DNA from: Parahoeflea halophila
Lineage (GTDB): Bacteria; Pseudomonadota; Alphaproteobacteria; Rhizobiales; Rhizobiaceae
NCBI RefSeq assembly: GCF_900220985.1
Contig: NZ_OCPC01000003.1
Location: 1-64,000, forward strand
Reading direction: 5' to 3'
DNA: 64,000 bases
Shown: in pieces, positions 6,159 to 25,408 of the stretch
Layout: every line of letters starts with the position of its first letter
Numbering within the stretch: the stretch's first letter is position 1
Translations under genes and position numbers: made by a program
The notes under the pieces: generated by a model
Told to the model about the DNA's origin: nothing
What the model saw: the letters and a program-made list of their open reading frames with translations, nothing else
Database searches by the model: none

Positions 6159-6245
6159 TCGGACCAGAATCCGGCCTTGCGAGCAACCGGACGAGAGAAA
6201 GCTTCACCTCCCTCTCCTCCCTCGGCCCGATCCCCTGAAACAGGT

Positions 6246-7829
6246 TCAGCCAAGCGCTGCGATCACCTCGTCAGTTTTCGTCACAAGCGACACATTCTGC
6301 AGCGCATAATTGATCGAGGCGTTGTGCCAGTCGGCGTTCATGGTCGAGCAGCCATCCTCGGGGATGATCATCACATAGCCCTTGTCCGCACCGGTTCGCG
6401 CCGTGTGCTCGATCGACATGTTTGTCCATGCACCCGTCTCGATAATCATGTCCCGCCCCTCGGCCTTGAGGACGGTCTCTAGGGTGGAGCCTTCCCATGC
6501 CGACATGCGCATCTTCTCGACCACGAAATCGCCGTCCTCGGGGACGAGCCCATCGACAGGCGATCCGCCCCAGGTGCCGCGGACCAGGGCCGCATTGTCG
6601 ATCACGCCTTCAAACAGCGGGGCGTTGAGCGTCAGCCCCCTGGCTCCGGGCGGGACGAGGAAATGGACATGAATTACCGGTACCCCGAGCGCACGGCACC
6701 GGTCGGCCAGGCGCGCGATATTGGCGATGGCATTCTGGTCGCGGCAGTGCTGAGGTGATCCGGATTCGGCGAAGGCGCCCCCCTCCATTACCACGTCGTT
6801 CTGCATGTCCTGGATAATCAGCGCGCAGCGCCGGGCGTCAAGCCGGAGCGGCTCGTCGGCGCCTGAAGATTGTGCAACCGATGCTTCCGCGCGCGAAGCG
6901 CTCCCGCCTGCCCTTGCGCGCATGAAAGGCTCATTGCGCGGTCCCACCTTGACGTCGACAGCATAGAGCGAGGTCGAGGCGCAGACATAGAGCGTGCGCC
7001 AGTCCGGGCCGCCCCAGTGGAAATTGGCAGGAAGCTCGGGAATCGAAACCTTGCCGATCAGCTTGCCGGACGGATTATAGACCCAAAGGCCACCGGGGGC
7101 CGTACACCAGACATTGCCCTCTGCATCACATTTCATGCCGTCGGGCACGCCGGCCAACAGGCTGTCGCGGATTCCGGACGCGAATACCCGTCCGTTCTTG
7201 AGCTTGCCGTCAGCTTGAACGTCGAACACCCGGATATTGGCCTGCTCGGTGTCGTTGATGTAGAGCAGGCTCTCATCAGGAGAAAAGCAAAGCCCGTTTG
7301 GCATGGTGAACATGTAGCGTTCGACAACCAGCTGCGGTTCCGCCCCCGGCTTGTGGCCCGGCGCCAGGCGGAAAACACCCTGCCAGCCCAGCTCGCGCGG
7401 CCGCTCGACGCCGAAACCCGGCATGCGGCCATACCAGGGATCGGTAAACCAGATCGATCCGTCGGACTTGACGCAGATGTCGTTGGGCGAGTTGAGTTCA
7501 CGCCCCTCGAAATGACTTGCCATCACCTCGCGCCGGCCATCAGGTCGAAAACGGGCAACGGAGGATGTGGAATGCTCGCAGACCAGCAGGTTGAGGTCTG
7601 AATCATATGTCATGCCGTTGCCCATGTTGGAGGGACGCATCCACTCCCGCACGCCGCTCTTGTCGAAGCGGCGACGCACATCGCCCGGCATGTCCGAAAA
7701 CAACAGATACTGCTCGACCGGATGCCAGATCGGGCCTTCGGTGAATGTGAAGCCGCTGCCCGGCTGGCGCACCGGCGCATGCTCGTCGATCAAGCGCCGG
7801 AAGTCGGGATCCAATGCCTGGTGAGCCAT
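6246..7829 (-). CDS. SMP-30/gluconolactonase domain fused to isochorismatase-like hydrolase
   Basis: 527 residues with two enzyme domains. Residues about 20-295 are a six-bladed SMP-30/gluconolactonase propeller with its metal-site landmarks: EGP at 31, SPND near 115, MPNG near 178 and VPDGM near 229. A Gly/Ala/Ser-rich linker (about 300-325) leads to an isochorismatase-like hydrolase, with QDMQND (Asp341) and EKMRMSAWEGS (Lys439). The third catalytic position, Cys in nicotinamidases and N-carbamoyl amidases, is Ser472 here (TNMSIEHTAR). A lactonase plus an amide or ether hydrolase acting in sequence is plausible. It is the last gene of the long operon, 12 bases after the MBL gene. There is no sign of a stop or frameshift at the junction. 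Confidence 0.88.
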   Translation of the reverse strand: MAHQALDPDFRRLIDEHAPVRQPGSGFTFTEGPIWHPVEQYLLFSDMPGDVRRRFDKSGVREWMRPSNMGNGMTYDSDLNLLVCEHSTSSVARFRPDGRREVMASHFEGRELNSPNDICVKSDGSIWFTDPWYGRMPGFGVERPRELGWQGVFRLAPGHKPGAEPQLVVERYMFTMPNGLCFSPDESLLYINDTEQANIRVFDVQADGKLKNGRVFASGIRDSLLAGVPDGMKCDAEGNVWCTAPGGLWVYNPSGKLIGKVSIPELPANFHWGGPDWRTLYVCASTSLYAVDVKVGPRNEPFMRARAGGSASRAEASVAQSSGADEPLRLDARRCALIIQDMQNDVVMEGGAFAESGSPQHCRDQNAIANIARLADRCRALGVPVIHVHFLVPPGARGLTLNAPLFEGVIDNAALVRGTWGGSPVDGLVPEDGDFVVEKMRMSAWEGSTLETVLKAEGRDMIIETGAWTNMSIEHTARTGADKGYVMIIPEDGCSTMNADWHNASINYALQNVSLVTKTDEVIAALG

Positions 7830-7841
7830 TGCAACCTCCCG

Positions 7842-8693
7842 TTATGCTGCGAACCAGTTCCGCTTCGGCACCGACTGGCTGGCCGGCCCGGGCACCTGCA
7901 TGTCCAGCCGGCCGACGACCTGCCCGTGTTCGACCATTGCCGGTTTGTCGTGGACCGGCAGCAGGAATTTCGCCCCGGAATACATGAGCTTGCGAATGGC
8001 ACCCTTCTCGCCGCGCTTGGATCCGCCATGGTTGCCGGTCACCTGATACTCCTCGGGACCGAATGTGCGGACGGGGTCGATCACCTGATCGTTGAAATCG
8101 TAAATGACATCGCCGCAGATCGTGGCGCGGCCCTCGGCGGTGTCGACATGGACATTCATTGAGCCCTCGGTATGCGCGCCGGCAGCTTCGAGGAAAACGC
8201 CCGGGATCAGCTCCACCGCGCCCGAGATCTCAAGATCCTCAAGCCGCAGCGCACCTGGATGATGCAGCCGTTCGACCAGATGGATGATGTCGGGCTTGGG
8301 GTATTGCGGATGCATCAGGCCCGAGACCGAATATTCGAGTTCCCGGCGGTTGATCACCACCGTGGTGTTCATCGAGAAATGATCGTCCTTGCCGGCATGA
8401 TCGATGTGAAGATGGGTGTGCAGCACGTAGCGGACATCGCCCGGCTTGACGCCGTGGTTCGCCAGCTGCCGCTCGATCATGTTCTCGTGGAACTGCAGCC
8501 CGCGCATGCCCAGCGTTTCCATGATCGCGTTGTCACGGTAACCGGTGTCGACAACGATCGGATATTGCCCGCCGAGGATGAGGAAGCCGTAGACCGGCAC
8601 TCTTCTGACCCGGCCGCAATCGCGTCCGAGCACGAGAAAGCTCGATTCAAGCTCGATATCACCGTAATCCAGCACCTTGATTTCCAAAGCCAT
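7842..8693 (-). CDS. Metallo-beta-lactamase-fold hydrolase, AHL-lactonase-like
   Basis: 283-residue MBL-fold protein with the zinc motif HxHxDH (H94, H96, D98, H99) and downstream ligands GAHTEGS and CGD. The layout resembles N-acyl-homoserine-lactone lactonases and related cyclic ester hydrolases. In this operon a catabolic lactonase is more likely than quorum quenching. The ATG at 8693 is chosen because the fold begins directly after it; the frame is open upstream but overlaps the amidohydrolase gene. It lies 16 bases after that gene and 12 before the SMP-30 fusion gene. Confidence 0.85.
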   Translation of the reverse strand: MALEIKVLDYGDIELESSFLVLGRDCGRVRRVPVYGFLILGGQYPIVVDTGYRDNAIMETLGMRGLQFHENMIERQLANHGVKPGDVRYVLHTHLHIDHAGKDDHFSMNTTVVINRRELEYSVSGLMHPQYPKPDIIHLVERLHHPGALRLEDLEISGAVELIPGVFLEAAGAHTEGSMNVHVDTAEGRATICGDVIYDFNDQVIDPVRTFGPEEYQVTGNHGGSKRGEKGAIRKLMYSGAKFLLPVHDKPAMVEHGQVVGRLDMQVPGPASQSVPKRNWFAA

Positions 8694-8709
8694 TCGCGTT
8701 TCCTCCCGT

Positions 8710-9591
8710 TCAGACCTTGTAGACCCGGCAGGCAGTGCCGGAAAAAATCTCTTGTTTTTGTGCGTCGCTCGGCGTCGCCGCTGCCGCCTGATGTGCCGCG
8801 AGCAGATCGGCGTAGCCGGTCCAGAGCTTTTCGATCGGGAAATTGGATCCCCATAGGCAGCGCTCGGCGCCGAAAATCGCAACGGCCTGCTCGACCAGCC
8901 AGGCGATATGTGCCGTGTCATTGCGGTGAATGAAGGTGCCGAAGCCCGAGAGCTTGCAGACCACATTGGGTTGCCCGGCGAGCGCCTCGAGATTGGCCCG
9001 CCACGTCTCCCGTCCCGTCTCCTCAAGGTCTTCCAGCATCCCGGCATGCTGGAGAACGAAAGTGACATCAGGGCAGCTGCGGGCCAACTCACAGGCACCC
9101 GGCATCTGACCGGAGAAGACCTGCAGATCGAAGCTCCATTCATGCTCGGCTAGGCGAGCGACATTGCGCTGAACCACAGGGCTGCGGCACAGGTCCGGAT
9201 CCGCGGCGAACCGGTAGAGCGGGTTTTTATGCCAATGAAACTGCTGACGGATACCGCGCATCAGTGGATGGCGAGCCAGGCGCTCAAGCGCCGGACGCAC
9301 GTCGTCGGCAGTCATGTCGGCATAACCGACGACCCCATGCGGCCAACCGGTCTCGGCAGCCACCTTCTCCAGCCAGGCGACCTCATCCTCCGCCTTTTCG
9401 GGCGGCCAGTTGGCCTGCACATAGACAGCCTTCTCGACACCGGTGCCGGAGACATCCTGAAGATATTCGGACATCGAATAATCGCGACGTATCGGTTCAT
9501 AGGGTCCGAAGATCCGCGGCTGCATCGGCCCGGACAACCATGGCAGATCCGACTGGCGCCAGACGTGAAAATGAGAATCGACCACCTTCAT
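8710..9591 (-). CDS. Amidohydrolase-superfamily TIM-barrel hydrolase (COG3618 type)
   Basis: 293 residues, the usual size of the amidohydrolase_2 group that includes 2-pyrone-4,6-dicarboxylate lactonase and L-fuconolactonase. It has the N-terminal HxH motif (DSHFHVW, H7 and H9), a central LQHAG histidine near residue 180 and the C-terminal GSNFP motif near 250, where many relatives have GSDWP. The ATG at 9591 overlaps the CoxE-like gene by four bases (ATGA). It probably opens a lactone or cyclic ester made downstream of the Mo hydroxylase. The substrate is not known. Confidence 0.85.
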   Translation of the reverse strand: MKVVDSHFHVWRQSDLPWLSGPMQPRIFGPYEPIRRDYSMSEYLQDVSGTGVEKAVYVQANWPPEKAEDEVAWLEKVAAETGWPHGVVGYADMTADDVRPALERLARHPLMRGIRQQFHWHKNPLYRFAADPDLCRSPVVQRNVARLAEHEWSFDLQVFSGQMPGACELARSCPDVTFVLQHAGMLEDLEETGRETWRANLEALAGQPNVVCKLSGFGTFIHRNDTAHIAWLVEQAVAIFGAERCLWGSNFPIEKLWTGYADLLAAHQAAAATPSDAQKQEIFSGTACRVYKV

Positions 9592-10709
9592 GCGCGCGCC
9601 CCCTTTGAAAACGCGAGAATCTCGCGGGCCAGCGAGCCGGGGCTGGAGCCGTCGCCCAGCCGGTCAAGCATGGGGAGGATCGCGCGCATGGCCCCGGTTT
9701 CGGGCCGGTAGGCCGGATCGGCGGCGAGCGGGGACAACCAGAGCACCGACCAGGCGAGCCCGTCGAGCGTGTGTATGGCCGAGGTCAAGGCCTCGGGTCC
9801 GCCGCGCTCCAGCCCGTCGGAAATGACGATCGCAAGCGCGCCGCGCGCAAATGAGGCGAAGCGCGGCACCGAAAGGAACACCGACAACGCCTCGCCAAGG
9901 CGGGTTCCGCCATCCCAGTCCGCCACAAGACCGGAGGCGAGTGTCAATGCCTGCTCCCGGCTACGGTGTCTCAATGCGCGGGTGACGCGTGTAAGTCGGG
10001 TTCCCAGTGTAAAAATTTCCACCCGCTCGCCGGCCTGCATCAGCGCATGGCTGAGCCGGAGCGCACCATCGGTTCCCGCCTTCATGGAGCCCGAGACATC
10101 GACCAGAACCAGAATGCGCCGCTGCCGCAAGCGCCTGTGACGCTTCGGCAGTTGAATGATCTCGCCATCGCGCCTCAGCATCTCGCGAAAGGCGCGGCGC
10201 GGATCGGCTTGCCGGCCTTTTCCGGGCGCGGTCCGCCGCGATCGCCGCCGCGGCAATGCGCCCGGGGCCGCGCGGGTGAAGCCCCTGAGAACGACATCCT
10301 CATCCCCCGACGTCAGCAGCCTTGCAAACAGCCGCTCGGCCGCCGTTGCGTCCGCGCCCGACGGATCTTCTTCCGGTCCCTCGGGCATCAGGTCGAAATC
10401 GCCCGCGTCGAAAGCCTGCGGCAGATCCTCGGCTTCACCCATCGCGGGTGCTGCGATCGAGCGGCCAAGAAAAACCGCATCGAAAACCGCATCAAAGGTT
10501 CCGGTACGTTCGGGTCCAGGCCCGAAGGTTGCGTGAGCTGCCCGCCGGACGTCCCTTATCGACCGCGGGCCCAGCAGTCCGACGCCTGTCACGAAGGCCT
10601 GAGACTGTTCGGGGGCGGCGGGAATGCCTGCCTCGCGCAATGCGGCTGCAAACGCAAGAAACGGTTCGAGTGCCCGCGGCAGCGGCTGCCTGAGCGTTTG
10701 TCCGGTCAC
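9588..10709 (-). CDS. CoxE-like protein with von Willebrand factor A domain
   Basis: 373 residues. The C-terminal half is a VWA domain with the MIDAS motif DVSGSMK near residue 205; the N-terminal half matches the CoxE family. CoxE proteins partner with MoxR-type AAA+ ATPases such as CoxD in maturation of the active site of CO dehydrogenase-type Mo hydroxylases. GTG at 10709 is chosen as start because it overlaps the stop of the ATPase gene by four bases (GTGA), and the sequence before it has no family similarity. An Arg-rich stretch precedes the VWA domain. Confidence 0.87.
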   Translation of the reverse strand: MTGQTLRQPLPRALEPFLAFAAALREAGIPAAPEQSQAFVTGVGLLGPRSIRDVRRAAHATFGPGPERTGTFDAVFDAVFLGRSIAAPAMGEAEDLPQAFDAGDFDLMPEGPEEDPSGADATAAERLFARLLTSGDEDVVLRGFTRAAPGALPRRRSRRTAPGKGRQADPRRAFREMLRRDGEIIQLPKRHRRLRQRRILVLVDVSGSMKAGTDGALRLSHALMQAGERVEIFTLGTRLTRVTRALRHRSREQALTLASGLVADWDGGTRLGEALSVFLSVPRFASFARGALAIVISDGLERGGPEALTSAIHTLDGLAWSVLWLSPLAADPAYRPETGAMRAILPMLDRLGDGSSPGSLAREILAFSKGARA

Positions 10710-11587
10710 GCCACGGCCTCCTGCAACAGCGCGTCGAGCCGCGGGACCATGAATTCGAGATCGTCCTGATCCTTCAGCGCCACGCCGATGGCGCGGGCAA
10801 AGGCACGCGGCCACGGCGCACCTTGGGCGTTGAGCAATGTCGCGGCCTGGGCCCACTCGACCGTTTCGGCCACGCCGGGCGGTTTCGCAAGCGGTTCGGC
10901 CCGCAAGCCGCCAACGGCGGCCACCACCTTGCGGGCGGTGTCCTGTGCGACGGTCGAAGCCCGCATCATCACGATCTCGGCTTCGAGTTCGGGCGCCGGA
11001 TAATCGATCCAGTGGTAGACACAGCGACGCCTGAGCGCCTCATGCAGTTCCCGCGTCCGGTTCGACGTCAGGACGACGACCGGCGGTTCGCCTGCGCGGA
11101 TGGTGCCGCGCTCGGGAATGGAGACGGTGAAATCGGACAGAAACTCGAGCAGAAAGGCCTCGAACTCATGGTCGGCGCGGTCGATCTCGTCAATCAGCAA
11201 CACCCGCTGGCGCGGTGCCTGCAGCGCCAGCAGGACGGGACGGGCGATCAGAAATTCATCTGCATAAAGATTGATGTGTTCGTCGCCGGCCTGGCGGATC
11301 GCAAGCATCTGTCGCGGGAAGTTCCACTCATACATCGCCGCCGCAGCATCGATGCCCTCGTAGCATTGCAGCCGCACCAGTTCCCGGCCTAGCACCGAGG
11401 CGATGGCCTTGGCGGCTTCGGTCTTGCCCACGCCCGGCGCACCTTCCAGAAGCAGGGGCTTGCCCAGTGCCAGGGCCAGATAGGCGGCGGTCGCCAGGCT
11501 TTCATCGGCAATGTACTGGGCGTCGCGCAAACCCTGAGCCAGGGGCCCCGGGCCATCAATGCCGAGAATGCTGGACCGCACCGCCAT
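10706..11587 (-). CDS. MoxR-family AAA+ ATPase, CoxD-like
   Basis: 293 residues with Walker A GAPGVGKTEAAKA near residue 48, Walker B VLLIDEIDRAD near 130 and a sensor 1 asparagine in VVLTSNRTREL near 173. Acts as a cytoplasmic chaperone-like ATPase with the VWA protein encoded next. In the CO dehydrogenase system CoxD helps install the Cu-S part of the cofactor; here the enzyme is not a CO dehydrogenase, so a more general role in Mo-cofactor or active-site maturation is inferred. The start overlaps the stop of the molybdopterin C-terminal gene by one base. Confidence 0.9.
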   Translation of the reverse strand: MAVRSSILGIDGPGPLAQGLRDAQYIADESLATAAYLALALGKPLLLEGAPGVGKTEAAKAIASVLGRELVRLQCYEGIDAAAAMYEWNFPRQMLAIRQAGDEHINLYADEFLIARPVLLALQAPRQRVLLIDEIDRADHEFEAFLLEFLSDFTVSIPERGTIRAGEPPVVVLTSNRTRELHEALRRRCVYHWIDYPAPELEAEIVMMRASTVAQDTARKVVAAVGGLRAEPLAKPPGVAETVEWAQAATLLNAQGAPWPRAFARAIGVALKDQDDLEFMVPRLDALLQEAVA

Positions 11588-12609
11588 CAGAGCATCCGGC
11601 GCGGTTTGGCGCCGCCTTGTGCCCTGAGCCCGCGCAGCACCTTCTCCGGCGTCACGGGCAGATCGTCGATCCTCACGCCGATCGCGTCATATACCGCATT
11701 GACGACCGCCGGGAGCACCGGATTGGCGCACATCTCACCCGGTCCCTTGCCGCCATAGGGACCGTCGGGCGCGGGCCGTTCGAGAACCGAGATGTGGTGT
11801 GGCGCGAGATCGCCCGGACCCGGCATCAGGTAGGAATTGAAATCTTCCGGGCCATGCTCGCGCGACGGATAATAGGGCTCCGTCGTCTCCCAGATCGCGT
11901 GGCTCATGCCCATCCAGGCGCCACCGCGCAATTGCTGCTCGACGAGCTTGGGGTTAAGCGCGCGGCCGACCTCATAGGCCGACTGCATGTCGATGACGGC
12001 AACCTCGCCGGTCTCGTCGTCCACCTCGACATCGACCAGCATCGCCGCATGGGCGAAGCAGGAGACCGGCGTCATCTCGCCGGTATCGGGATCGACCTCG
12101 GAAAGCGGGATGAGAAAGATCCCGCGTCCCGCGATGGTCCGGCCTTGCTTGAACTGCGCGGCCTGTGCGGCGGCCATCGTGGTTATCGAGCGCGACGGCG
12201 CGCCCTTGACGTGGATGTTGCCCTTGCCGTCGGTGACAAGATCTGCTGCATCCACTTCCAGTTCCTCGGCAGCCGCCTCCAGCATCACCGAACGCGCCTC
12301 GTTGGATGCCTGGATCACGGCATTGCCCATGCGGTGCGTCCCGCGCGAGGCGAACGAACCCATATCGTGCGGACCGGTGTCGCTGTCGGCAGTGTCGACA
12401 TAGACATCCTCCACCGGCACGCCCAGCGTTTCAGCCGCGATCTGGCGGGTAACCGATTTCATGCCCTGGCCAAGATCGATGGCCGAGAGCGCTACCGTGA
12501 ACTTGCCATCGGGATTTGAATGAACCAGCGCCTGACTTGGATCGCCGCCGAGGTTCATGCCGATGGGATAGTTGATCGCCGCGAAACCGCGGCCGCGATG
12601 CGTCGCCAT
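11587..12609 (-). CDS. Molybdenum hydroxylase, molybdopterin subunit, C-terminal part (split gene)
   Basis: 340 residues that align with the second molybdopterin-binding half of xanthine dehydrogenase/CoxL large subunits. It starts at RGRGFAAINYPIGMN, contains the cofactor segment SAIDLGQGMKSV near residue 45 and ends with the catalytic glutamate segment GGKGPGEMC (Glu292), followed by AVVNAVYDAIG. On its own it cannot hold the cofactor; it must join the product of the preceding gene. Its ATG shares one base with the TAA of that gene (TAATG), a coupling arrangement. A two-chain large subunit has precedent in nicotinate dehydrogenase of Eubacterium barkeri (NdhL and NdhM). Confidence 0.85.
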   Translation of the reverse strand: MATHRGRGFAAINYPIGMNLGGDPSQALVHSNPDGKFTVALSAIDLGQGMKSVTRQIAAETLGVPVEDVYVDTADSDTGPHDMGSFASRGTHRMGNAVIQASNEARSVMLEAAAEELEVDAADLVTDGKGNIHVKGAPSRSITTMAAAQAAQFKQGRTIAGRGIFLIPLSEVDPDTGEMTPVSCFAHAAMLVDVEVDDETGEVAVIDMQSAYEVGRALNPKLVEQQLRGGAWMGMSHAIWETTEPYYPSREHGPEDFNSYLMPGPGDLAPHHISVLERPAPDGPYGGKGPGEMCANPVLPAVVNAVYDAIGVRIDDLPVTPEKVLRGLRAQGGAKPRRML

Positions 12610-15995: not shown

Positions 15996-15999
15996 CGTC

Positions 16000-16437: not shown

Positions 16438-19365
16438 CTACTTCTTCTCCTTTTCGCCGGCCTTGGCACCGCCGGGAGGCGCCTCATCGGCCTTGGCGCC
16501 GCCGGATTTCGCGGTAGTGCCTTTTTTCACCTCATTGGCGACGCGCTGCATGTCACTCGCCTCGCGGATCAGGCCACCCTGCTTGGACAGATTGGCGCCG
16601 TCGATGCCGATATCGTTGAGCAGGCTGTCGATAAGAGGTGCCTGAACCCGGTATCTCAGCGCCGAATTGATGACCTCGTCGGTGGGGCTGCCGCCGTCGC
16701 CCCGCCCCGCGCCACCGCCATGAATGCCGTCGAGTTGCATGATCCGGATGTCCTGGATCTTCTCGAGCGGCTTGACGCTGGCCGAGACGATGCCCTCGAC
16801 ATGCTCGAGCAGCTTGCGGCGGAACAGCGATGCCCGCGCCGGATCGGTGAGCACGTTCTCGGCCTCGTTGATGAGACGCTGTGCTTCCGCCTGCACGGCC
16901 AGCCGAACCCGTTCGCCCTCGGCGATTGCCTGGGCTTCCGCAGCAGCCTTTTCCGCCATTAGCACATCGATCGACTTGCGCCGGTTGGCAGCTTCGGTCT
17001 CGCGCACTGTCTTGACCTTTTCCTCGGCCTCGGCCGCCTGGGCCCTGGCGGCATCCGCCTTGGCGCGGGCTGCACTTTCCTCGAGGCTCTTCTGCGACAG
17101 CGCGATGGCCTTTTCGATCTGTACGGTTTCCACCTCACGCTCGCGCTCGACCTCCAGCCGGCGGCGCTCGGTCTCGTGGCTGATGCGGATCTCGTCGAGG
17201 CCGCGCTCGGATGCGATACGGGAGCGCTCGATATCCTCGCGGCTTTCGATCTCGGCTTCGCGCAGTGCCTGCACGCGGGCGATCTCGAGCTGCTCAATGG
17301 AGCGGCGACGCTCCAGCCGTGCTGCTTCCAGCGCCCTTTCGCGTTCCACTTCCGCTGCCTCGACTTCGCGCTTTGCAGCGATTTCCGAGCGTTGCACCGA
17401 GGCTTCTGCAGCCACGCGCTCGCTTCGGGTATCCGACAGAGCCACGATGCTCTTCTGCTCGGCTTCCTCGACGGAACGCTTCCGGTCGATCTCGCTGACT
17501 TCGCGTGTCTTCTGGCTGGCGATGCGTTCCTTTTCGAGCGTCAGCTCGGTTGCGACACGCTTCTTCTCGACCTTTTCACGCCGCGCGATGTCGGCCGCCT
17601 CGAGTTCTTCCTGCTTGGCAATCTCGCGGACCCTGACTTCCTGTTCCGCCGCGATCTTCTCGGCCTCGATGGCTTTTCTCTGCGCGATGCGGGCCTGCTC
17701 GACGGCCTCCTCGGCAGCAACCCGTGCCTCGTCGATGATCCGGTTGCGGGTGATTTCGCGGCTCTGGGTTTCCTCGTCGGCGGCAATGCGGGTGGCTGCG
17801 ACCTGCTTCTCGCGGGAGATCCGGGCGGCATCGATGGCCTCTCCGGCTGCGATTTCCGCCGCGTCGACGGCCTGCTGGCGCGAGATCTCCAGTTCGCGGA
17901 TCCGCTGATCCTCCGAGATCCTTGCCTCGTTGACTTCAGCAGTCTGCAGGATGCGGATGCGTTCGACGGTTTCGCGGGCGACGATCTCGGCTTCCTCGAG
18001 CCCCTGCTGACGCGCGATTTCACGGCGGCGGATGTCCTCCTCACCCTTGATCCGGGTCTGGGCGATGATCAGGTTCTGGGCCATCCGGGCGCGTTCGGTT
18101 TCCTCATGCGCCTTGATTTCCGCCTGCTCGATCGTGCGCTGCCGCTCGATTTCCAGCGCCTGGGTTTCCTTCTCCTTGGCGATCCTGGCTTCGGTCACCG
18201 CCCGTTCCTGGGCGATGCGCGCCTTCTCGGTGATTTCACGGGCGGTAATCTCGGCCTCGTCGAGCGCCTTCTGGCGTTCGATTTCGCGCGCACGGGTGTC
18301 CTGCTCGTTGGTGATGCGGGCTTCGGAAACCGCACGCTCCTGGCGGATCCGTGCGGTTTCGATGGCTTCGCGTGCGGCAATTTCCTCGGCCTCATCGGCC
18401 GACGTTCGTGCAATCTCGCGGGCGCGGATCTCGCGCTCGGACGAGATACGCGCTTCGGCAACCCTGCTTTCGTGGGTGATCCTCGCCTTTTCGACCATTT
18501 CGCGGGCGGTGATCTGCGCGGCTTCCGCCTCGGTTTCGCGCTCGGCACGTTCACGTGCCAGCAACGCGCGCTGCTGGGCGCGGCGGAACTCGACTTCACG
18601 TTCCTGGTCGAGCCGGGCCTCTTCGCTGGCCCGCTCGATTTCGAGCGCCTGTTTCTCCGCTTCCAGATTGCGGGTGCGGATCTGGATCATTGAGTCCTGC
18701 TCGATGTCGTTGCGCAGCTTGCGCCGTGCCTCGATATCCTTGATCAGATCGGTCAGACCTTCGGCATCGAAGCGGTTGGACGGATTGAAGTACTCGAGCG
18801 GCGTCTGATCGACATCGATGATGGCGACACTTTCCAGCTCGAGCCCGTTCTTGGTCAGGTCCTCCTGTGCGACTTCACGCAACCGCGCCACATAGGTCGA
18901 GCGGTTCTCGTGCATTTCGCCCATGGTCATTTCGGCGGCGATGGCGCGCATCGCGCTTTCGAACTTGCCCGACAGCAGACCGTGCAGATTGCCCGCCTCG
19001 AGCGTGCGCCGGCCCAGCGTCGAGGCCGCCATAGAGACCGACTCCCTGGAGGGATTGACGCGGACATAGAATTCCGCTTCGACATCCACCCGCATCCGGT
19101 CCTTGGTGATCAGCGCGGTCTCGTTCTTGCGGGCCACGGCAAGCGGCAGCGTGTTCATGTTGACCGGGGTGATCTCGTGGATGATCGGCCAGACGAAGGC
19201 ACCACCGTCGATCACCACCTTTTCGCCGAGGAAACCGGTTCTGACGAAGGCGATTTCCTTGGTCGAGCGCCGGTAAAGCCACTGCATCACCCAGTAGATG
19301 ACGGCAATCACAACCACCGCCAGGATTAGCCACAAGATCAGTTCTCCGATGATCTGTCCCGTCAT
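16438..19365 (-). CDS. SPFH/flotillin-like membrane scaffold protein with long repeat stalk
   Basis: 975 residues. One N-terminal membrane helix (about 8-30) is followed by an SPFH/Band 7 domain (about 35-215), then a very long charged helix region (about 215-800) rich in Glu, Arg, Ala and Ile. In it a 44-residue unit recurs at least seven times (about 272-579). A flotillin-type C-terminal region (about 800-930) and a Lys/Gly/Ala tail follow. Bacterial flotillins are commonly 300-650 residues, so the stalk is unusually long. Flotillins oligomerise on the membrane and organise transporters or enzymes; here it is made between the ABC transporter and the Mo hydroxylase, so it may hold the two together. 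GGGGGAGGAAGAG precedes the ATG. Confidence 0.88.
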   Translation of the reverse strand: MTGQIIGELILWLILAVVVIAVIYWVMQWLYRRSTKEIAFVRTGFLGEKVVIDGGAFVWPIIHEITPVNMNTLPLAVARKNETALITKDRMRVDVEAEFYVRVNPSRESVSMAASTLGRRTLEAGNLHGLLSGKFESAMRAIAAEMTMGEMHENRSTYVARLREVAQEDLTKNGLELESVAIIDVDQTPLEYFNPSNRFDAEGLTDLIKDIEARRKLRNDIEQDSMIQIRTRNLEAEKQALEIERASEEARLDQEREVEFRRAQQRALLARERAERETEAEAAQITAREMVEKARITHESRVAEARISSEREIRAREIARTSADEAEEIAAREAIETARIRQERAVSEARITNEQDTRAREIERQKALDEAEITAREITEKARIAQERAVTEARIAKEKETQALEIERQRTIEQAEIKAHEETERARMAQNLIIAQTRIKGEEDIRRREIARQQGLEEAEIVARETVERIRILQTAEVNEARISEDQRIRELEISRQQAVDAAEIAAGEAIDAARISREKQVAATRIAADEETQSREITRNRIIDEARVAAEEAVEQARIAQRKAIEAEKIAAEQEVRVREIAKQEELEAADIARREKVEKKRVATELTLEKERIASQKTREVSEIDRKRSVEEAEQKSIVALSDTRSERVAAEASVQRSEIAAKREVEAAEVERERALEAARLERRRSIEQLEIARVQALREAEIESREDIERSRIASERGLDEIRISHETERRRLEVEREREVETVQIEKAIALSQKSLEESAARAKADAARAQAAEAEEKVKTVRETEAANRRKSIDVLMAEKAAAEAQAIAEGERVRLAVQAEAQRLINEAENVLTDPARASLFRRKLLEHVEGIVSASVKPLEKIQDIRIMQLDGIHGGGAGRGDGGSPTDEVINSALRYRVQAPLIDSLLNDIGIDGANLSKQGGLIREASDMQRVANEVKKGTTAKSGGAKADEAPPGGAKAGEKEKK
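17629..18552 (-). repeat. Seven tandem copies of a 44-residue coding repeat (132 bases)
   Basis: Residues about 272-579 of the SPFH protein. Each unit has the pattern REIxRQ..(L/I)(D/E)EAEI.AREx.E.ARI.QE.AV.EARI..E.. with exact spacing of 44 residues from one REI to the next. 44 equals four undecads, which suits a right-handed coiled coil or straight helical stalk rather than a heptad coil. The copies are diverged in DNA, so this is an old protein repeat and not a recent DNA expansion. Weaker copies continue to about residue 620. Confidence 0.85.
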
Positions 19366-19392
19366 CTCTTCCTCCCCCTGGCGCTATGCCAG

Positions 19393-20220
19393 TTACTTGC
19401 CTGCGATGAGCTTGAATGCGCGGGTCTGTTCGGTCAAAGCCACTTCGGTCGGCAACCGCTCCATCGAGGAGGCGCCGTAAAATCCGTGGCAGATCTCGGT
19501 GTTCTTCAAGACGTATTCGGCGTCCTCGGGCAAGGCGACCGGTCCGCCGTGCACCAGAATGATCGCATCCTTGTTCACCTTCAGCGCCGCTTCCGCCCAA
19601 GTATCGACAAGCGCGGGGCAATCAGCCAGCGTCAGCGCGGTCTCCGCTCCGATGGAACCGCCAGTGGTCAGGCCCAGATGGCAGACGATGATGTCGGCAC
19701 CGGCTTTGGCCATGGCCTCGGCATCCTCGGCGCAGAAGACATAGGGCGTGGTCAGCATGTTCCGGGCCCGGGCCTTGGCGATCATGTCGACCTCCAGCCC
19801 GTAGGACATTCCGGTCTCTTCCAGATTGGCCCGGAAGGTGCCATCGATCAGGCCGACGGTCGGAAAGTTCTGCACGCCGGAAAAACCGACCCGCTTGAGG
19901 TCGTCGAGAAACACGTCCATCAGCCGGAACGGATCGGTGGCGCAGACCCCCGCCAGAACCGGTGTGTGCTTGATAACCGGCAACACTTCTGCGGCCATCT
20001 CGACGACGATCGCATTGGCGTCGCCATAGGGCATCAACCCGGCAAGGCTTCCGCGGCCGGCCATCCGGTAGCGGCCGGAATTGTAGATCACGATCAGATC
20101 GATGCCGCCGGCTTCCTCGCACTTCGCCGAAAGGCCTGTGCCCGCACCGCCACCCACGATTGGCTCGCCGGCTGCGATCATGCTGCGGAATTTCTCGAGA
20201 AGGGTCTCTCTGGCTATCAT
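19393..20220 (-). CDS. PEP-hydrolase-family TIM-barrel protein (Tm-1 C-terminal-domain-like)
   Basis: 275 residues of the phosphoenolpyruvate hydrolase-like/TIM-barrel signal-transduction family. Landmarks are [14 protein letters not shown] near residue 20, [16 protein letters not shown] near 43 and [12 protein letters not shown] near 175. In tomato Tm-1 a domain of this type follows a UPF0261 domain in one chain; here it is a separate gene directly after the UPF0261 fusion, overlapping it by four bases (ATGA at 20217-20220). The reaction in vivo is not established for the family. The SPFH gene starts 27 bases after its stop. Confidence 0.85.
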
Positions 20221-22421
20221 CTCCGGGCCTCTCTTTTGCGTACCGGCCTGCCGCCGCCATGCAGCGCTCGAAACGCGGCCACAACGGCTGCGGCAAACGC
20301 GGGGTCGTTGATGTGATGGGGCAGACGGATCAGTTGCCTGTTGGAAGTCTGCCGCACGGTGGATTGAAGCGCCTCGTAAACTGCCGCGCGCGCTTCCGGA
20401 TCGTGGAAGGCCTGACCGGGTGCGTCGAGCGCCGAGACGCCGCCCTCGGGCAGGAAAAACCGCACCTGCCCTTCCATCTGGTTCAGCCGCTCGCCAATCC
20501 AGCGGCCCATTGCTGCGCACTCTTCGACTGTGGTGCGCATCAGGGTCACTTGCGGGTTGTGGACGTAGAAGGTGCGGTCCTTGTATTTCTCCGGAACCGT
20601 CTCGGGTGCTGCGAAATTGACCATGTCCAGCGCGCCGACCGAGCCGATAAAGGGGATACGCGTCCGGATGACCGCGCCGAAACGATCTTCGGTCGCGGGG
20701 AATACGCCGTCCATCATCAGGTCGCAGACTTCGGTCGTGGTGATGTCGATGACACCGGACGTCTTTCCGGACTCGACAAGCTTTTCCATCGAGCGCCCGC
20801 CGATCCCCGTCGCGTGGAAGACGAGGCAATCATGCGTGTCATCAAGCAGATCGACGATCTGGCGCACGCAGGGAGTGGTGACGCCAAACATGGTCAGTCC
20901 CACCGCAGGTTTGCCCTGCACAGCCTCTTTTGCACCACGCCGTGCCTTGACCATACCCGCCATCGCCTGGGCGGCGTTCGACAACACCTCCCGGGTGATG
21001 GTGTTAAGCCCCTGAACATCGGCCACCGAGTGCATCATCGTGATGTCCGAGGGGCCGACATATTTGCTGACCTCACCCGAAGCCACGGTGGAGACGATCA
21101 GTTTCGGCACACCGACCGGGAGCGTCCGCATCGCCGGGGCGACAATTGCGGTGCCGCCTGAACCGCCCGCCGATATGATGCCGCCAATCCCCTGCTGGCG
21201 GGCGATCCAGCGCTCGAATGCAAGCGTCATCCCGGCCACCGATTGACCACGGTCGCCAGTGAACACACCGGCCGAGCCGCGCGGATGGAACGCGGCGATC
21301 TGATTGGCCGGGATTTCCGCGCCCGAGTGCTCGCCGGATGTCGAAAGATCCACCATTCGTACCGGAAGTCCGGCCGCGCGGACCTGGTCGCGGATGAATC
21401 TCAACTCGTCGCCCTTGGTGTCGAGTGTTCCGGCGACCAGCACAACGCTGTCACCCGGACTTGCCAATTGACGAATTTCCGCCTGCTCCGCACTTGCGCG
21501 ATTGGTCGGACCGGCGGTGATTACGCGCCCCGAGCGCTCAAGCTGGGCAACCGGCACCGGCTGCGACCAACGCGTCGGCGCCGTCGGGTTGGATTGATAG
21601 ATCTTGACCGTGCCGGAAGTCCGCGCATCGGCCTTGGCGGCCTCTTCCTTGGACGTCCCCGCCGCAGCAATTGCGGGTTGGGCCGGCGTGTCGTCGTGGC
21701 TGTGACGGCCCACTCCGAGCAGGCGTTGCTGCAAATCACGGTCACCGGCAAGCTCTGCCGCCGGAGCGATCCGGTTGATCCGTCCGTTGACCATGATGGC
21801 CACATTGTCGGAAATGCCGCAGGCAACGCCGATGTTCTGCTCGATCACCAGCACTTCCATATCGCCTTCATCGGCCAGACGAAGCAGCATGTCTTCAACC
21901 TGGGCGACGATCACCGGGGCGAGGCCTTCGGTGGGTTCGTCCATCACCAGAAGCCGGGGATTGGACAGCAGCGCCCGCGAAATCGCCAGCATTTGCTGCT
22001 CGCCGCCGGAAAGCTGCCCGCCGCCATTGTTCTTCCGCTCGGCCAGGCGCGGGAACGTCGAATAGATGCGTTCGACAGTCCAGGCCCCGCTCTTGGTGGC
22101 AACCATCTTGAGATGTTCGTCGACCGACAGCGAGCGCCACAACCGGCGGCCCTGGGGCACGTATCCAATGCCAATTCGCGCAATCTCGGCCGGCGTCTTG
22201 CCGACCAGAGACTGACCCGAAAAATTGATCGTTCCGGAGGCAACCGGCACCATGCCCATGATCGCCTTGCAAAGCGTCGTCTTGCCCATGCCGTTGCGGC
22301 CGACCACCGACAGGACGCCGCCTTCGAGCTTCAGATCGCCCCCCTGCAGCGCGTGGGAGGCGCCATAGAAGACATTCAGATCCTTGATTTCCAGGGCGGG
22401 AACGCGGGAACGTTCAACCAT
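20217..22421 (-). CDS. LivF-type ABC ATPase fused to a Tm-1-like (UPF0261) domain
   Basis: 734 residues. About 10-235 is a complete branched-chain-amino-acid-type ATPase with Walker [10 protein letters not shown] (41-49), signature LSGGEQQ (137-143) and Walker B LLVMDEP (157-163). A low-complexity linker (about 240-320) leads to a full UPF0261/Tm-1-like domain that starts at [15 protein letters not shown] near 326 and runs to about 725, including [10 protein letters not shown] and [15 protein letters not shown]. The Tm-1 N-terminal domain binds ATP. The fusion ties an uptake ATPase to an enzyme-like domain. It overlaps LivG by eight bases and the TIM-barrel gene by four. No frame break is seen at the joint. 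Confidence 0.9.
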
Positions 22422-23211
22422 GACCGTCTCCCAGATAGAGTTCCTGAACTTCCGGATCGTTCTCGATCTCCTCCGGCGTGCCTTCCTTGAAGATTTTGCC
22501 GTTGTGCATCATCGTCACGCTTTCGGCGACACGAAGTGCCACGTCCATGTCGTGCTCGATGATGATGAAGCCGATATGCGACGGAAGCCCGGTCAGGATC
22601 GAGATAAGTTCCGAGCGCTCGGTCGGTGAGAGACCTGCGGCTGGTTCGTCAAACAGGATGAAACGCGGTGCGCCGGCAAGGGCGAGCGCGATCTCGAGCT
22701 GCCGTTGCTGACCGTAGCTCAGTTCGGAGACCGGCGTATCGGTGGCAGCCGTCATGTTGACCGCCTCGATCAGTTCGGCGGTTCTGGTCAAGAGCGGATC
22801 GCCCTTTCTCGGTCTGATCAGGGAGAACCGGCCTCGCGAAACGCCACGGCAGGCGAGATAGACATTGTCGGTCACGGTCAGCCCGCCAAACAGGAGGCTG
22901 ATCTGATAGGTCCTGCGCAATCCCCGGCGGATCCGCTCATAGGCCGGAAACGTGGTGACATCCTCGCCAAACAGCCGGATCGTGCCGGATGTCGGCAGGA
23001 AGTCACCCGTCACGCAGTTGAATAGAGTTGTCTTTCCTGCACCATTCGATCCCAGCACCGCCCGGCGTTCGCCCGGACGTACGGACAGGGTGATGTCCTC
23101 GATCGCGGCGAGTGCGCCGAACATCTTCGTCACGCCGCGCAGTTCCAGTGCGTTGCCGGAACTTACCGAACCCAGGCCCTCGGTGGCGTTGCGGGTCACG
23201 GTCAGCGTCAT
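22414..23211 (-). CDS. ABC transporter ATP-binding protein, LivG type
   Basis: 265 residues with Walker A GSNGAGKTT near residue 53, signature LSYGQQRQLE near 163 and Walker B FILFDEP near 186, plus the LivG-specific C-terminal extension ending in NDPEVQELYLGDG. It energises uptake with the LivF domain encoded next. The ATG at 23211 overlaps the LivM stop by four bases. A roughly 20-residue N-terminal extension precedes the first strand. Confidence 0.93.
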   Translation of the reverse strand: MTLTVTRNATEGLGSVSSGNALELRGVTKMFGALAAIEDITLSVRPGERRAVLGSNGAGKTTLFNCVTGDFLPTSGTIRLFGEDVTTFPAYERIRRGLRRTYQISLLFGGLTVTDNVYLACRGVSRGRFSLIRPRKGDPLLTRTAELIEAVNMTAATDTPVSELSYGQQRQLEIALALAGAPRFILFDEPAAGLSPTERSELISILTGLPSHIGFIIIEHDMDVALRVAESVTMMHNGKIFKEGTPEEIENDPEVQELYLGDGHG

Positions 23212-24257
23212 TTCACAGCCCCCGTCAACGGATCACGGTTGCGGGTCTTGCGGTTGCGCCAGCGCACCCAAAGGCCCAGGACGCCATCGGGTGAGAAGAA
23301 CACGACAGCAAGAAAACCAAGACCTATCAACAGCTTGAAGCGCTCTCCCGACATTCCGAATCCGGTCAGGATGTCCGGAGAAAAGGTGCGCAGAACCGTA
23401 TAGATGAGCGCGCCGATAAACGGTCCGATGGGGCGTCGCACCCCGCCGACAACGGCAATCACCAAAATGTCGATGACGGCCGGAATGCCCGCGGTGCCGG
23501 GGGAAATCTGCGCATTCTGCCAGACCAGCAGGATACCGCCGAAAGCCGCGATCACCGAGGCGAAGGTGTAGGCGGCGATGCGATGCGCAGTCACATTGAA
23601 ACCCAGTGCCGCCATACGGCGCGGATTGTCGCGCACGCCCTGAAGCGCCAGCCCGAAAGGCGAGCGGGAGACATAGACCACCGCGAGATAGGACAGTGTC
23701 GCGCACCCGAGCGACAGGTAGTAGAACGGCACCGCCTGGCGCCAGTCGACGCCGAACAGTTGCGGCGGCACCACAAGGTTGAAGCCGGAATAGCCGTTGA
23801 AGATCCCGTAATTCTGACGCGTGAAGTAGAAGAAGGCCGAGGCGATCGCGAGCGTGATCATGATCGTGTAGATACCCTCGGTCCTTACCGCGAGCGCCCC
23901 GACGATGGTTCCGAATATGGCAGCAATGACCACCGCAACCGGGATGTAGAGCCACCACGGAAGCCCCATGCTGATCGACTCGACACCGGAGGTGCCGAAG
24001 ATGGCGACCATGTAGCCCCCGAGTGCGGCAACCGACATCTGGATCAGGCTGACCATCCCGCCATAGCCGGCCAGGAACATCAGGCTGAGGGCGATCATGC
24101 CGAGCAGGAATGTCCAGCCGAAGACCTGAAACAGAATAAAGTCGTTGGCGATCGCGGGCATGATCAGCAGCAGCAAGGCAACCGCCCACCACTGGGGCGG
24201 GATCCGCTCGACCCACGGAACGTAATAGGGTGTTGAGCGTTCAACGAGCGCCATCAT
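23208..24257 (-). CDS. ABC transporter permease, LivM type
   Basis: 349-residue inner-membrane permease with eight to ten hydrophobic segments and the family motif GLALQGVRDNPRRMAALG near residue 220, which is the coupling loop to the ATPase. It begins six bases after the LivH stop, with GAGGGGAT before the ATG. Together with LivH it forms the channel of a HAAT-type importer. The ligand is set by the binding protein encoded at 27510-28772 and cannot be read from the permease. Confidence 0.93.
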   Translation of the reverse strand: MMALVERSTPYYVPWVERIPPQWWAVALLLLIMPAIANDFILFQVFGWTFLLGMIALSLMFLAGYGGMVSLIQMSVAALGGYMVAIFGTSGVESISMGLPWWLYIPVAVVIAAIFGTIVGALAVRTEGIYTIMITLAIASAFFYFTRQNYGIFNGYSGFNLVVPPQLFGVDWRQAVPFYYLSLGCATLSYLAVVYVSRSPFGLALQGVRDNPRRMAALGFNVTAHRIAAYTFASVIAAFGGILLVWQNAQISPGTAGIPAVIDILVIAVVGGVRRPIGPFIGALIYTVLRTFSPDILTGFGMSGERFKLLIGLGFLAVVFFSPDGVLGLWVRWRNRKTRNRDPLTGAVK

Positions 24258-24263
24258 ATCCCC

Positions 24264-25295
24264 TCATCGCACCGTTCCCAGAAGGCCCTGAGGCCGGAAC
24301 GCCAGCACTGCCGCCATGATCAGAAAGGTGAAGACGACCGAATAGGTCGGCGCGTAGACCAGACCGATCTGCTCCGACAGCCCGATGACGGCCGCGCCAA
24401 TGGCAGCTCCGGGAATCGAGCCCATGCCGCCGACGATAACCACCACGAGGCTGGCCAAAAGAAACCGCGTGTCCTCGCCCGGCGAAAGCGACTGAAACGT
24501 CCCGCCGACAATCCCGGCCATACCGGCCAACCCGGCTCCGAATGCGAAGACGGCGAGGAAGACGTATTGAATCCGAACACCGGACGCGGCAAGCATCTCG
24601 CGGTCGTCGACACCGGCACGGATCAGCATGCCGAGCCTGGACTTGTTCAGCACCAGCCACATCGCGAGCCCGATGACGATGGCAGCGACAAGGATGGCGA
24701 TCCGGACCGCCGGATAACGCAGATAGACAGCCTCACCGTTTGATTTGATCGTGGAAATGATCGGAAGTTCAGCCGGACCACTCAGCCATTCCGGCGACAA
24801 GATCGTGTAGGACTGGCCACCCCATATCCACAGCATGATGTCCGCGATGACAACCGACAGGCCGATCGTCACCATCGTCTGCCGCAACTCCTCGCCTTCC
24901 ATCCTGCGAAACACCTGGTTTTGCAGAACCAGACCGAGCCCGGCAACGAGAATGAAGACCACCGGAAAGGCCAGCAGCCAGGATCCGGTCGCGTCCGAGA
25001 CTTCGTAGCCGATATATCCTCCAAGAAGATAAAGCGAGCCATGCGCCAGATTGACGTTTCGCATCAGGCCGAAAATCAGCGTGAAGCCGGACGCCACGAG
25101 GAAATACAGCGCGCCAAGCGTGATGCCGCCAAACACCGCATTGAGAAAGATCTTCTTGCGCCCGAGCGTATCGACGAGACCTTCGGGCCATGGCGCGAAA
25201 ACCATCCACAGCACGATGGCCACCGCGACCGCGATGATCAACGACCAGATCGGTCTGCGTCTGTAGAAATTTCCCATCCCGTCAGCCTGTCCCAT
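24264..25295 (-). CDS. ABC transporter permease, LivH type; first gene of the long operon
   Basis: 343-residue permease with the LivH motif LVASGFTLIFGLMRNVNLAHG near residue 62 (split here only by length limits) and about eight membrane segments. The ATG at 25295 and another at 25277 are both possible; neither has a strong ribosome site. This is the first gene of the 17-gene minus-strand string that ends at 6246. The promoter should lie in 25296-25408, between it and the broken AraC gene. Confidence 0.92.
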   Translation of the reverse strand: MGQADGMGNFYRRRPIWSLIIAVAVAIVLWMVFAPWPEGLVDTLGRKKIFLNAVFGGITLGALYFLVASGFTLIFGLMRNVNLAHGSLYLLGGYIGYEVSDATGSWLLAFPVVFILVAGLGLVLQNQVFRRMEGEELRQTMVTIGLSVVIADIMLWIWGGQSYTILSPEWLSGPAELPIISTIKSNGEAVYLRYPAVRIAILVAAIVIGLAMWLVLNKSRLGMLIRAGVDDREMLAASGVRIQYVFLAVFAFGAGLAGMAGIVGGTFQSLSPGEDTRFLLASLVVVIVGGMGSIPGAAIGAAVIGLSEQIGLVYAPTYSVVFTFLIMAAVLAFRPQGLLGTVR

Positions 25296-25408
25296 CAGCC
25301 TGTCAAAACGGCGCGTCCTCTACGAGCCGTAGACAAAACACTAGCCCGGCCCGGACCTTACCCTTATACCCGAGAGTCTTTTCGTTGGCCCCGGCGTCGG
25401 GAAAACCA

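Follow-up and report, generated by a model that had tools for sequence, protein, structure and literature searches.

What would a giant flotillin do in an operon for the import and oxidation of a small molecule? It has long been an open question what bacterial flotillins organise, and a case in point is a 64,000-nucleotide stretch of Parahoeflea halophila DNA (contig NZ_OCPC01000003.1, positions 1 to 64,000, referred to here as the window) from a genome assembly of 4.19 Mb in 15 contigs. In this window, 17 minus-strand genes running from 25295 to 6246 encode a LIV-type ABC importer, a 975-residue SPFH/flotillin protein, a molybdenum (Mo) hydroxylase with a split Mo subunit, and several hydrolases. 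The answer that we favour, tentatively and with slightly less than even confidence, is that a dedicated SPFH scaffold may gather the importer and the oxidising enzyme, the latter carrying a peptide tag, into one membrane assembly. Importer and enzyme can both be named here, and two short motifs can each be deleted, which makes the flotillin question directly testable.

We assigned protein families with Pfam for 20 window proteins, i.e., the 17 of the unit and three encoded upstream of it (LivK, an iron-containing alcohol dehydrogenase (Fe-ADH) and an AraC-type regulator). The gene content, strand, order and coordinates proposed in an initial annotation of the sequence were borne out, and the features of the 17-gene unit are as follows.

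24264..25295, minus strand: LivH permease (BPD_transp_2, 4.8e-31)
23208..24257, minus strand: LivM permease (BPD_transp_2, 2.4e-31)
22414..23211, minus strand: LivG ATPase (ABC_tran, BCA_ABC_TP_C)
20217..22421, minus strand: LivF ATPase fused to UPF0261, Tm-1-like (ABC_tran, UPF0261, UPF0261_C)
21465..21686, minus strand: LivF-UPF0261 linker with RW[ST] motif (PTRWS at 21564-21578)
19393..20220, minus strand: PEP_hydrolase-like TIM barrel (PF09370, 3.9e-130; solved relative 2p10)
16438..19365, minus strand: giant SPFH2/flotillin, 975 aa (Band_7, 1.4e-13; Flot, 1.4e-31)
19264..19359, minus strand: N-terminal membrane helix of SPFH, residues 3-34 (hydropathy, AlphaFold2 (AF2) model)
16777..18756, minus strand: lengthened helical wall of SPFH, residues 204-863 (autocorrelation, span measurements)
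16543..16578, minus strand: C-terminal segment of SPFH, GGLIREASDMQR, candidate tag receptor (alignment)
16000..16437, minus strand: SRPBCC protein 1 (Polyketide_cyc2)
15549..15995, minus strand: SRPBCC protein 2 (Polyketide_cyc2)
14749..15552, minus strand: FAD subunit of the Mo hydroxylase (FAD_binding_5, CO_deh_flav_C)
14276..14749, minus strand: 2Fe-2S subunit (Fer2, Fer2_2)
12609..14279, minus strand: N-terminal half of the Mo subunit, MoN (Ald_Xan_dh_C, MoCoBD_1)
12645..12917, minus strand: Pro/Ala-rich linker of MoN, from about residue 455
12612..12644, minus strand: C-terminal peptide of MoN, RFSSLAGFRRR, candidate docking tag
11587..12609, minus strand: C-terminal half of the Mo subunit, MoC, with GGKGPGE motif (MoCoBD_2)
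10706..11587, minus strand: CoxD-like MoxR AAA ATPase (AAA_5/AAA)
9588..10709, minus strand: CoxE-like VWA protein (VWA_CoxE, 2.1e-43)
8710..9591, minus strand: amidohydrolase-2, lactonase-like (Amidohydro_2; L-fucono-1,5-lactonase model 121 bits, cut-off 400)
7842..8693, minus strand: metallo-beta-lactamase-fold hydrolase, MBL (Lactamase_B; relatives are N-acyl homoserine lactone (AHL) lactonase and 4-pyridoxolactonase)
6246..7829, minus strand: SMP-30/gluconolactonase (SGL) fused to an isochorismatase domain (SGL, Isochorismatase)

Gene order and spread of the unit

The genes are tightly packed, as first described. In transcription order the 16 junctions measure +6, -4, -8, -4, +27, 0, +4, -4, -1, -4, -1, -1, -4, -4, +16 and +12 bases, i.e., overlaps at 10 of the 16, one junction at 0 and no gap larger than 27 bases (ATG starts were used for the PEP hydrolase at 20220 and MBL at 8693, and two values were recalculated). 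We then counted gene order in other genomes, using the best 80 of 573 relatives as named-genome loci, chosen by SPFH, and keeping the 57 that are at least 20 kb long (23 of the 80 were under 20 kb and were left out). In 57/57 loci LivH, LivM, LivG, LivF, UPF0261, PEP hydrolase, SPFH, SRPBCC1, SRPBCC2, FAD, FeS, MoN, MoC, CoxD and CoxE lie on one strand in this same order, and because it is kept in every one of these SPFH-chosen loci the order is not due to chance. The initial annotation had named scattered relatives and independent internal promoters as observations that would speak against a single unit; no unlinked relatives were seen among the 57 loci, and a consensus promoter scan of 6000-25900 returned fewer sites than shuffled sequences (1 versus 3.7 expected).

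The unit is larger than first stated, because LivK, AraC and Fe-ADH recur on the same strand, in 53, 54 and 29 of the 57 loci, respectively. In the window LivK, Fe-ADH and AraC, in this order, lie upstream with gaps of 101, 114 and 283 bases.

27510..28772, minus strand: LivK-type periplasmic binding protein (Peripla_BP_6), outside the range first given
26362..27405, minus strand: Fe-ADH, accessory (Fe-ADH, ADH_Fe_C)
25579..26247, minus strand: AraC-type regulator, frameshifted here (HTH_AraC)

Frame 0 of the window AraC gene (25579-26247, on to about 25350) ends early and the remaining helix-turn-helix region is in another frame, which reflects a sequencing error or a decayed regulator. Toward the locus end the unit is less constant, with the amidohydrolase in 49/57 loci and MBL in 15/57. 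SGL and isochorismatase form one full-length or nearly full-length fusion in 30/30 genomes asked among those of the 80 named loci; this fusion, like the LivF-UPF0261 fusion and the split Mo subunit described below, is real and conserved. When ten genomes were viewed further out, no family beyond LivK recurred in more than 4 of the ten, and the 3' clusters found in at least six of them were read as shadow frames because they overlap the last gene.

The spread of the unit is patchy. Of 385 genomes of the class scanned, 50 match the N-terminal region of SPFH (E 1e-20 or better) and 6, including the source genome, have MoC at 70% or more; in all six MoC lies within about 8 kb of SPFH. Within the genus, the giant SPFH protein is present at 87% or more in 4/18 genomes (own included, one partial). 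Twenty stretches of 12-20 kb around SPFH matches were mapped with the window proteins: five hold the unit (type 1), eleven hold LivF-UPF0261, the TIM barrel, SPFH and SRPBCC together with Liv genes and without the window-type Mo set (type 2), and four hold SPFH alone. The closest named locus among the matches listed is that of Hoeflea alexandrii (97% over the SPFH N-terminus), and carriers among the listed records include Jannaschia, Maliponia, Roseibium, Bradyrhizobium, Bosea, Acuticoccus and Elioraea. Plasmids of Shinella and Yoonia also carry the unit, and in a metagenome-assembled genome of Granulosicoccus (L072) the first half is present and the locus ends before the Mo genes. Two features of the Yoonia locus offer clues to the pathway, namely an aldehyde dehydrogenase after Fe-ADH (L140:20-2551) and a series of SDR, FAA hydrolase and SDR genes after the last gene of the unit (L140:23607-25941).

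The SPFH wall and the terminal peptide of MoN

The SPFH protein consists of an N-terminal membrane helix, the SPFH (Band_7) domain, a long helical stretch and the Flot domain. Its hydropathy maximum is at residue 5, where the AF2 model has a helix, and autocorrelation of the stretch between SPFH and Flot revealed an 11-residue periodicity with a 44-residue super-repeat. Type-1 relatives in 72 loci range from 835 to 1259 aa. To compare their walls we measured the span, i.e., the residues between two conserved SPFH anchors, in a set of 103 loci plus the window, of which ten loci were unmeasured (SPFH cut by the stretch, or shorter than 500 residues as in L132, 397 aa); a separate class was kept for five type-1-like loci whose contig or stretch is cut, L093 and L099 among them. 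The window span is 667 residues, and type-1 spans run from 521 to 953 with a median of 656 (73 proteins, window included). Long type-2 proteins have a span of 400 in the first 8 loci and of 389-499 with later loci, four short type-2 proteins of 268-279, and four orphan flotillins of 279-301. These lengths are stepwise: in 92 of the 94 measured proteins the difference from the window span is 0 or 8 modulo 11, and the two that break the rule, L093 and L099, are both on cut loci. All 30 distinct spans outside the cut set fall in the two modulo-11 classes, a result matched by 0 of 20,000 random draws, and the later type-2 spans of 389 and 499 obey the same rule. SPFH length therefore shifts by whole 11-residue units, in two classes 3 residues apart.

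If the wall were a continuous helix rising 0.15 nm with each residue, and the assembly a cage, a type-1 wall of median span would by arithmetic be about 53-57 nm taller than one of orphan length. Human flotillin forms a closed-walled cage 22 nm high with a wall helix of 186 residues (PMC11260169), and Flotillin-1 (9bq2) is the sole solved sequence match of the window protein at E up to 0.001 (6.3e-07). Both proteins part their SPFH and C-terminal regions by a long charged helix, which in the window protein corresponds to an anchor-to-anchor span of 667 residues, and the window protein may form a cage as well. It is tempting to speculate further that a tall SPFH cage over the ABC importer forms a flotillin-walled compartment that admits enzymes tagged with an aromatic-Gly peptide, so that oxidation of the imported substrate would precede its release into the cytosol, with two versions (a Mo hydroxylase tagged at the C end, an amidohydrolase at the N end) whose height varies in 11-residue steps; we consider this possible but doubtful.

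A C-terminal segment (such as IFRSAKDAQSLA or LIREASDMQRVA) is common to the aligned type-1 (6), long type-2 (5) and L052 proteins and is missing from the seven canonical SPFH proteins in the same alignment, and on this basis it is a candidate tag receptor. Among 40 SPFH domains picked for a midpoint-rooted tree, type 1, long type 2 and L052 group together (support 100/99); the remaining short type-2 proteins, canonical flotillins, a rhodopsin-linked SPFH and a distant giant group fall outside. The comparison suggests an order of events in which the importer operon came first and the long wall and the tags later.

In 67/67 loci that have both halves, the break in the Mo subunit falls between MoCoBD_1 and MoCoBD_2. 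MoN ends in a freely varying Pro/Ala-rich linker, and after it comes a conserved peptide whose common form is RFSS[VIL][SF]GxRRR. Among 68 MoN tails (the window and 67 of 72 type-1 loci, the other five having no MoN stop in the stretch), the last 12 residues end in R[RK]R in 68/68 and contain RF in 65/68. Across the six frames of 104 sources, the tail pattern with a stop behind it turned up 64 times, every time in MoN. A comparison of MoN length with SPFH span gave a Spearman coefficient of 0.33 (n=68, uncorrected for kinship). On the importer, LivF is fused in frame to UPF0261 without a stop in 92/94 loci, and the linker between them, judged disordered from its composition, carries RW[ST] in 90/94; the motif is absent from the short-SPFH loci L053, L141 and L184.

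What the MoN tail is for can be read in more than one way. MoxR-type ATPases act on client proteins, and the tail could be a signal by which CoxD/CoxE mature the Mo centre or join the halves, with SPFH as a general membrane organiser. This explanation agrees with the position of CoxD and CoxE after MoN/MoC in 57/57 loci. The nearest other MoC proteins (55-57%) come from genomes G196 and G289, neither of which is among the genomes with an SPFH match; in the loci of three such relatives the subunit is always split, none has the linker or the tag, and, in favour of the same explanation, no CoxD/CoxE match was found in these stretches, one of which is a contig of only 4.6 kb. The same split relatives without a tag indicate that the tag is unneeded for joining the halves, and that role was rejected. 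In addition, the long type-2 stretches described below yielded no CoxD or CoxE, yet their amidohydrolase has a tag of similar form. We regard a maturation signal as rather unlikely.

A sister operon with other enzymes

In type 2, the importer, UPF0261, TIM barrel, SPFH and SRPBCC genes are joined to other enzymes: SRPBCC2 is fused to a zinc-binding (medium-chain) dehydrogenase, and FAA hydrolase, alpha/beta hydrolase and PF01979 amidohydrolase genes are present (enzyme set tested with Pfam in L044 and L047). A different Mo hydroxylase, of 30-48% identity, lies on the other strand of L053, a short type-2 locus. The Mo hydroxylase with flotillin is therefore one version of a wider module, and a window-type Mo hydroxylase as the reason for the flotillin was rejected, since the sister operon does without it. 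Of the import-and-oxidise assembly on a flotillin scaffold that the initial annotation envisaged, the conserved, packed unit and a fitting linker and tag anatomy speak in favour, whereas the tie between the scaffold core and the Mo enzyme did not hold. The triad of UPF0261, TIM barrel and SRPBCC also occurs beside other transporters, with no SPFH in the annotated stretch (L142-L144), the neighbours being a sugar ABC transporter with arabinofuranosidase, a BMP-type ABC transporter or, for one set, TRAP transporter genes close by. After the type-2 operon of L051, extra and more distant copies of UPF0261 and PEP hydrolase were observed (L051:282-2805).

The long type-2 amidohydrolase starts with MA[ED]xx[FY]xxW[GSA]G and a Gly/Ser-rich linker in 15/15 loci, with more deviant tags in L049 (PTRWSG) and L220 (SIWGG). 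No such tag was found in 5 amidohydrolase genes beside a canonical-length SPFH (L053, L054, L141, L184) or in 10 without SPFH in the stretch (L205, L206, L208, L221-L227); left out of these counts were L228, L052 and L207 (same place as L199; second copy 49% identical, untagged). The two tags thus sit on unrelated enzymes and at opposite ends, at the C end of MoN and the N end of the amidohydrolase. A pattern chosen after viewing the tails, [FY]xx[VILMW][SGAF]G, fits 50/68 type-1 MoN C-tails and 13/15 type-2 N-tails, compared with 0.6% and 1.4% of the respective shuffled tails. Among the C-ends of ten further proteins of the operon, those of 2/57 PEP hydrolases match it and none of the rest do.

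Several observations weigh against a dedicated scaffold with docking peptides. RFS[ST] is present in 50/68 MoN tails only (last 12 residues), and in most loci the AGGAGG of the RRR codons probably also serves MoC as its Shine-Dalgarno site; that the tail only mirrors this site was rejected, as in L040, L043, L073 and L102 the Shine-Dalgarno sequence follows the stop and RRR is still kept with other codons. RW[ST] is absent from the type-1 locus L092 and present in short type-2 L052 and L054. The locus L228 has a tagged amidohydrolase with no SPFH in view before the contig ends, and L052 (span 268), inside the long type-2 group, has no amidohydrolase in view. Tagged amidohydrolases are also closer to the query (69-77%, besides the query itself) than untagged ones (49-64%), hence tag, SPFH type and subfamily cannot be separated here and the tag may be no more than a mark of one subfamily. 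Only two lineages, type 1 and long type 2, combine the tag with a long SPFH, which makes for a small evolutionary sample. Lastly, the AF2 model of SPFH, a single chain with three long helices, is weak (mean predicted local distance difference test (pLDDT) 61.7, predicted template modelling score (pTM) 0.26), and steps of 11 residues would also arise from repeat units being gained or lost, with no selection for height.

An alternative account is an ordinary catabolic operon, in which SPFH is a loose lipid-microdomain protein, tails and linkers are lineage-specific extensions that dock nothing and the wall drifts by slippage. Slippage yields length steps of one repeat unit, and the relatedness of tagged and untagged amidohydrolases differs as this account would have it. 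Lineage-specific drift agrees less well with a MoN end that is conserved past a variable linker, with R at positions -3 and -1 in 68/68, and with an amidohydrolase tag that tracks the lengthened SPFH (15/15 versus 0/15). The place of SPFH inside the unit in 57/57 loci also argues against it, though the loci were chosen by SPFH. All in all, an ordinary operon seems to us an unlikely account.

In the scaffold reading that we favour, LivK would capture an acid with a ring, probably an aromatic or heteroaromatic one, for import by LivHMGF. SPFH, anchored by its one N-terminal helix and with its long helical wall presumably in the cytoplasm, would collect importer and oxidising enzyme into one membrane assembly, the importer docking via the RWS motif of the LivF-UPF0261 linker and the Mo hydroxylase via the MoN C-terminal peptide on its flexible, proline-rich linker. 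CoxD and CoxE would mature the Mo site, after the cox system (PMC4240915), the SRPBCC proteins would pass on a hydrophobic ligand or tether the enzyme to an electron acceptor, and the amidohydrolase, MBL and SMP-30 proteins would hydrolyse the product, most likely as lactones. If the tag binds SPFH, this would amount to a membrane-tethered, peptide-addressed coupling of uptake to the first catabolic steps, with no protein shell, in soil and marine genera.

Substrate, chemistry and known systems

The LIV/HAAT-type importer set is complete, with LivK, two permeases and two ATPases. The AF2 model of LivK has a mean pLDDT of 89.3, and in a Foldseek search with it the entries at ranks 1 and 3-7 carry titles that name a complex with p-hydroxybenzoic acid, with 4-hydroxybenzoate or with a ligand whose name is cut after 'v', which we take to be vanillate. 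Rank 2 has no ligand in its title, and binders of branched-chain amino acids, urea and amides follow among the fold neighbours, so that an aromatic acid as LivK ligand is a lead from modelling, not proof.

The FeS, FAD and two Mo-binding regions found here are those of the molybdenum hydroxylase superfamily. A GE motif near the C end marks molybdenum hydroxylases, and G[GA]KGxGE is present in 66/67 MoC proteins. CO dehydrogenase has the active-site loop AYxCSFR; the loop here is P[AS][TS]AMRGFG in 70/72, and a CO dehydrogenase operon was rejected on this ground and on the scores (MoN 175.2 and MoC 100 bits versus a cut-off of 991). Among NCBIfam equivalogs, MoN scored at best 283 bits versus 784 for xanthine dehydrogenase (pucD) and MoC 208 bits versus 995 for 4-hydroxybenzoyl-CoA reductase, scores that are lowered because each half was scanned apart. 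Neither SRPBCC protein has a hydrophobic membrane helix by hydropathy, and anchoring may therefore fall to SPFH.

The initial annotation had the pathway continue by lactone and amide hydrolysis. Isochorismatase-like cysteine hydrolases have a nucleophilic Cys where the window domain (6246-6848), like all 13 sequences compared, has Ser (TNMS[IV]E in 13/13, Asp and Lys kept). The amide step is doubtful because of this replacement, the domain is probably not a cysteine amidase, and an amidase step was rejected. Hydrolysis of lactones by the amidohydrolase, MBL and SMP-30 proteins may still apply at the level of families, their scores lying far below the curated cut-offs of named lactonases.

No pathway with this gene set was known to the first annotators, and we likewise found no description of the operon in the titles and abstracts of the open literature, subscription journals being mostly outside this scope. 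The same titles and abstracts include no paper joining SRPBCC with flotillin, or Tm-1-like with phosphoenolpyruvate hydrolase, and those joining flotillin, molybdopterin and ABC transporter were all unrelated by title. The parts are of known kinds and, as far as checked, their combination, the proposed link of tag and SPFH and the stepwise wall are new. Encapsulin cargo peptides are short conserved terminal peptides on a flexible linker, and the likeness of the window tags to encapsulin or microcompartment cargo is one of sequence anatomy alone; no encapsulin or other shell gene is among the Pfam matches of the unit. We know of no established function in bacteria for UPF0261 and its TIM-barrel partner, which the operon places at an importer. 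CoxG of aerobic CO dehydrogenase operons is an SRPBCC protein, like two proteins of the window unit.

The cox operon of aerobic CO dehydrogenase with CoxD, CoxE and CoxG (PMC4240915) likewise has FAD, FeS and Mo subunits and AAA and VWA helpers; in the window unit the Mo subunit is split and tagged, the active-site loop differs, and importer and SPFH are added. A CoxG-like protein is a membrane anchor in Sulfolobus (PMC11962113). UPF0261 and TBST (TIM-barrel) proteins are reported to co-evolve and are fused in plants (PMC5028733); the pair is encoded by adjacent genes here, and the window instead fuses UPF0261 to LivF. The SPFH dome of stomatin encloses AQP1 and UT-B (PMC12407830), and is similar in that an SPFH assembly surrounds a membrane transporter; it comes from human erythrocytes and has no enzyme cargo, and the text available reports no tag.

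Giant SPFH2 proteins of about 800-1000 aa were already noted in an earlier study (Hinderhofer et al. 2009, PMC2636767), and those of subgroup 2b share with the 975-residue window protein an SPFH2-type domain and a strongly expanded coiled coil, an assignment that rests on length and the Flot domain rather than on the models of that study. There SPFH2 pairs with an NfeD2-type partner (17 genomes being without one), and the text available describes no operon of the window kind; among the 20 window proteins scanned with Pfam no NfeD2/YqiJ partner was found, the LIV importer and Mo hydroxylase standing in its place, and a YqiJ neighbour is present beside the three canonical SPFH proteins tested. 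Because HflK/C-group SPFH proteins interact with FtsH (PMC2636767), the window protein could also be an HflK/HflC-type quality-control or regulatory cage that steers importer turnover by FtsH, not a metabolic scaffold. No protease gene is among the 20 proteins scanned and the tags on cytosolic enzymes would be left unexplained, which makes such a cage very improbable.

Other SPFH proteins were seen along the way. The source genome encodes a second one of ordinary size (G000:C5:62327-63229), a 551-residue open frame with 32% identity. The distant giant group L165-L168 (SPFH at about 8.5-11.4 kb of these loci) is 37-39% identical over the N-terminal region and may be a parallel invention: the proteins of L165 and L167 have 938 and 852 aa and a 29-residue repeat, and the SPFH gene is preceded by a hydantoinase-B gene and followed by one for an ABC ATPase. 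Pfam, run on L165 and L167, also assigned a DAO oxidoreductase in L165. The hydantoinase-B protein has a long N-terminal extension, starting with SLDDLLxANKxQFD in 3/4 loci. The flotillin-associated rhodopsin cluster (PMC10308929) resembles the window unit in that a bacterial flotillin gene is tied to one membrane customer; that customer is a rhodopsin, and the text available contains no importer-enzyme set of the window kind. In L170 (8665-11528), an SPFH gene adjoins a bacteriorhodopsin-like gene, as in those clusters.

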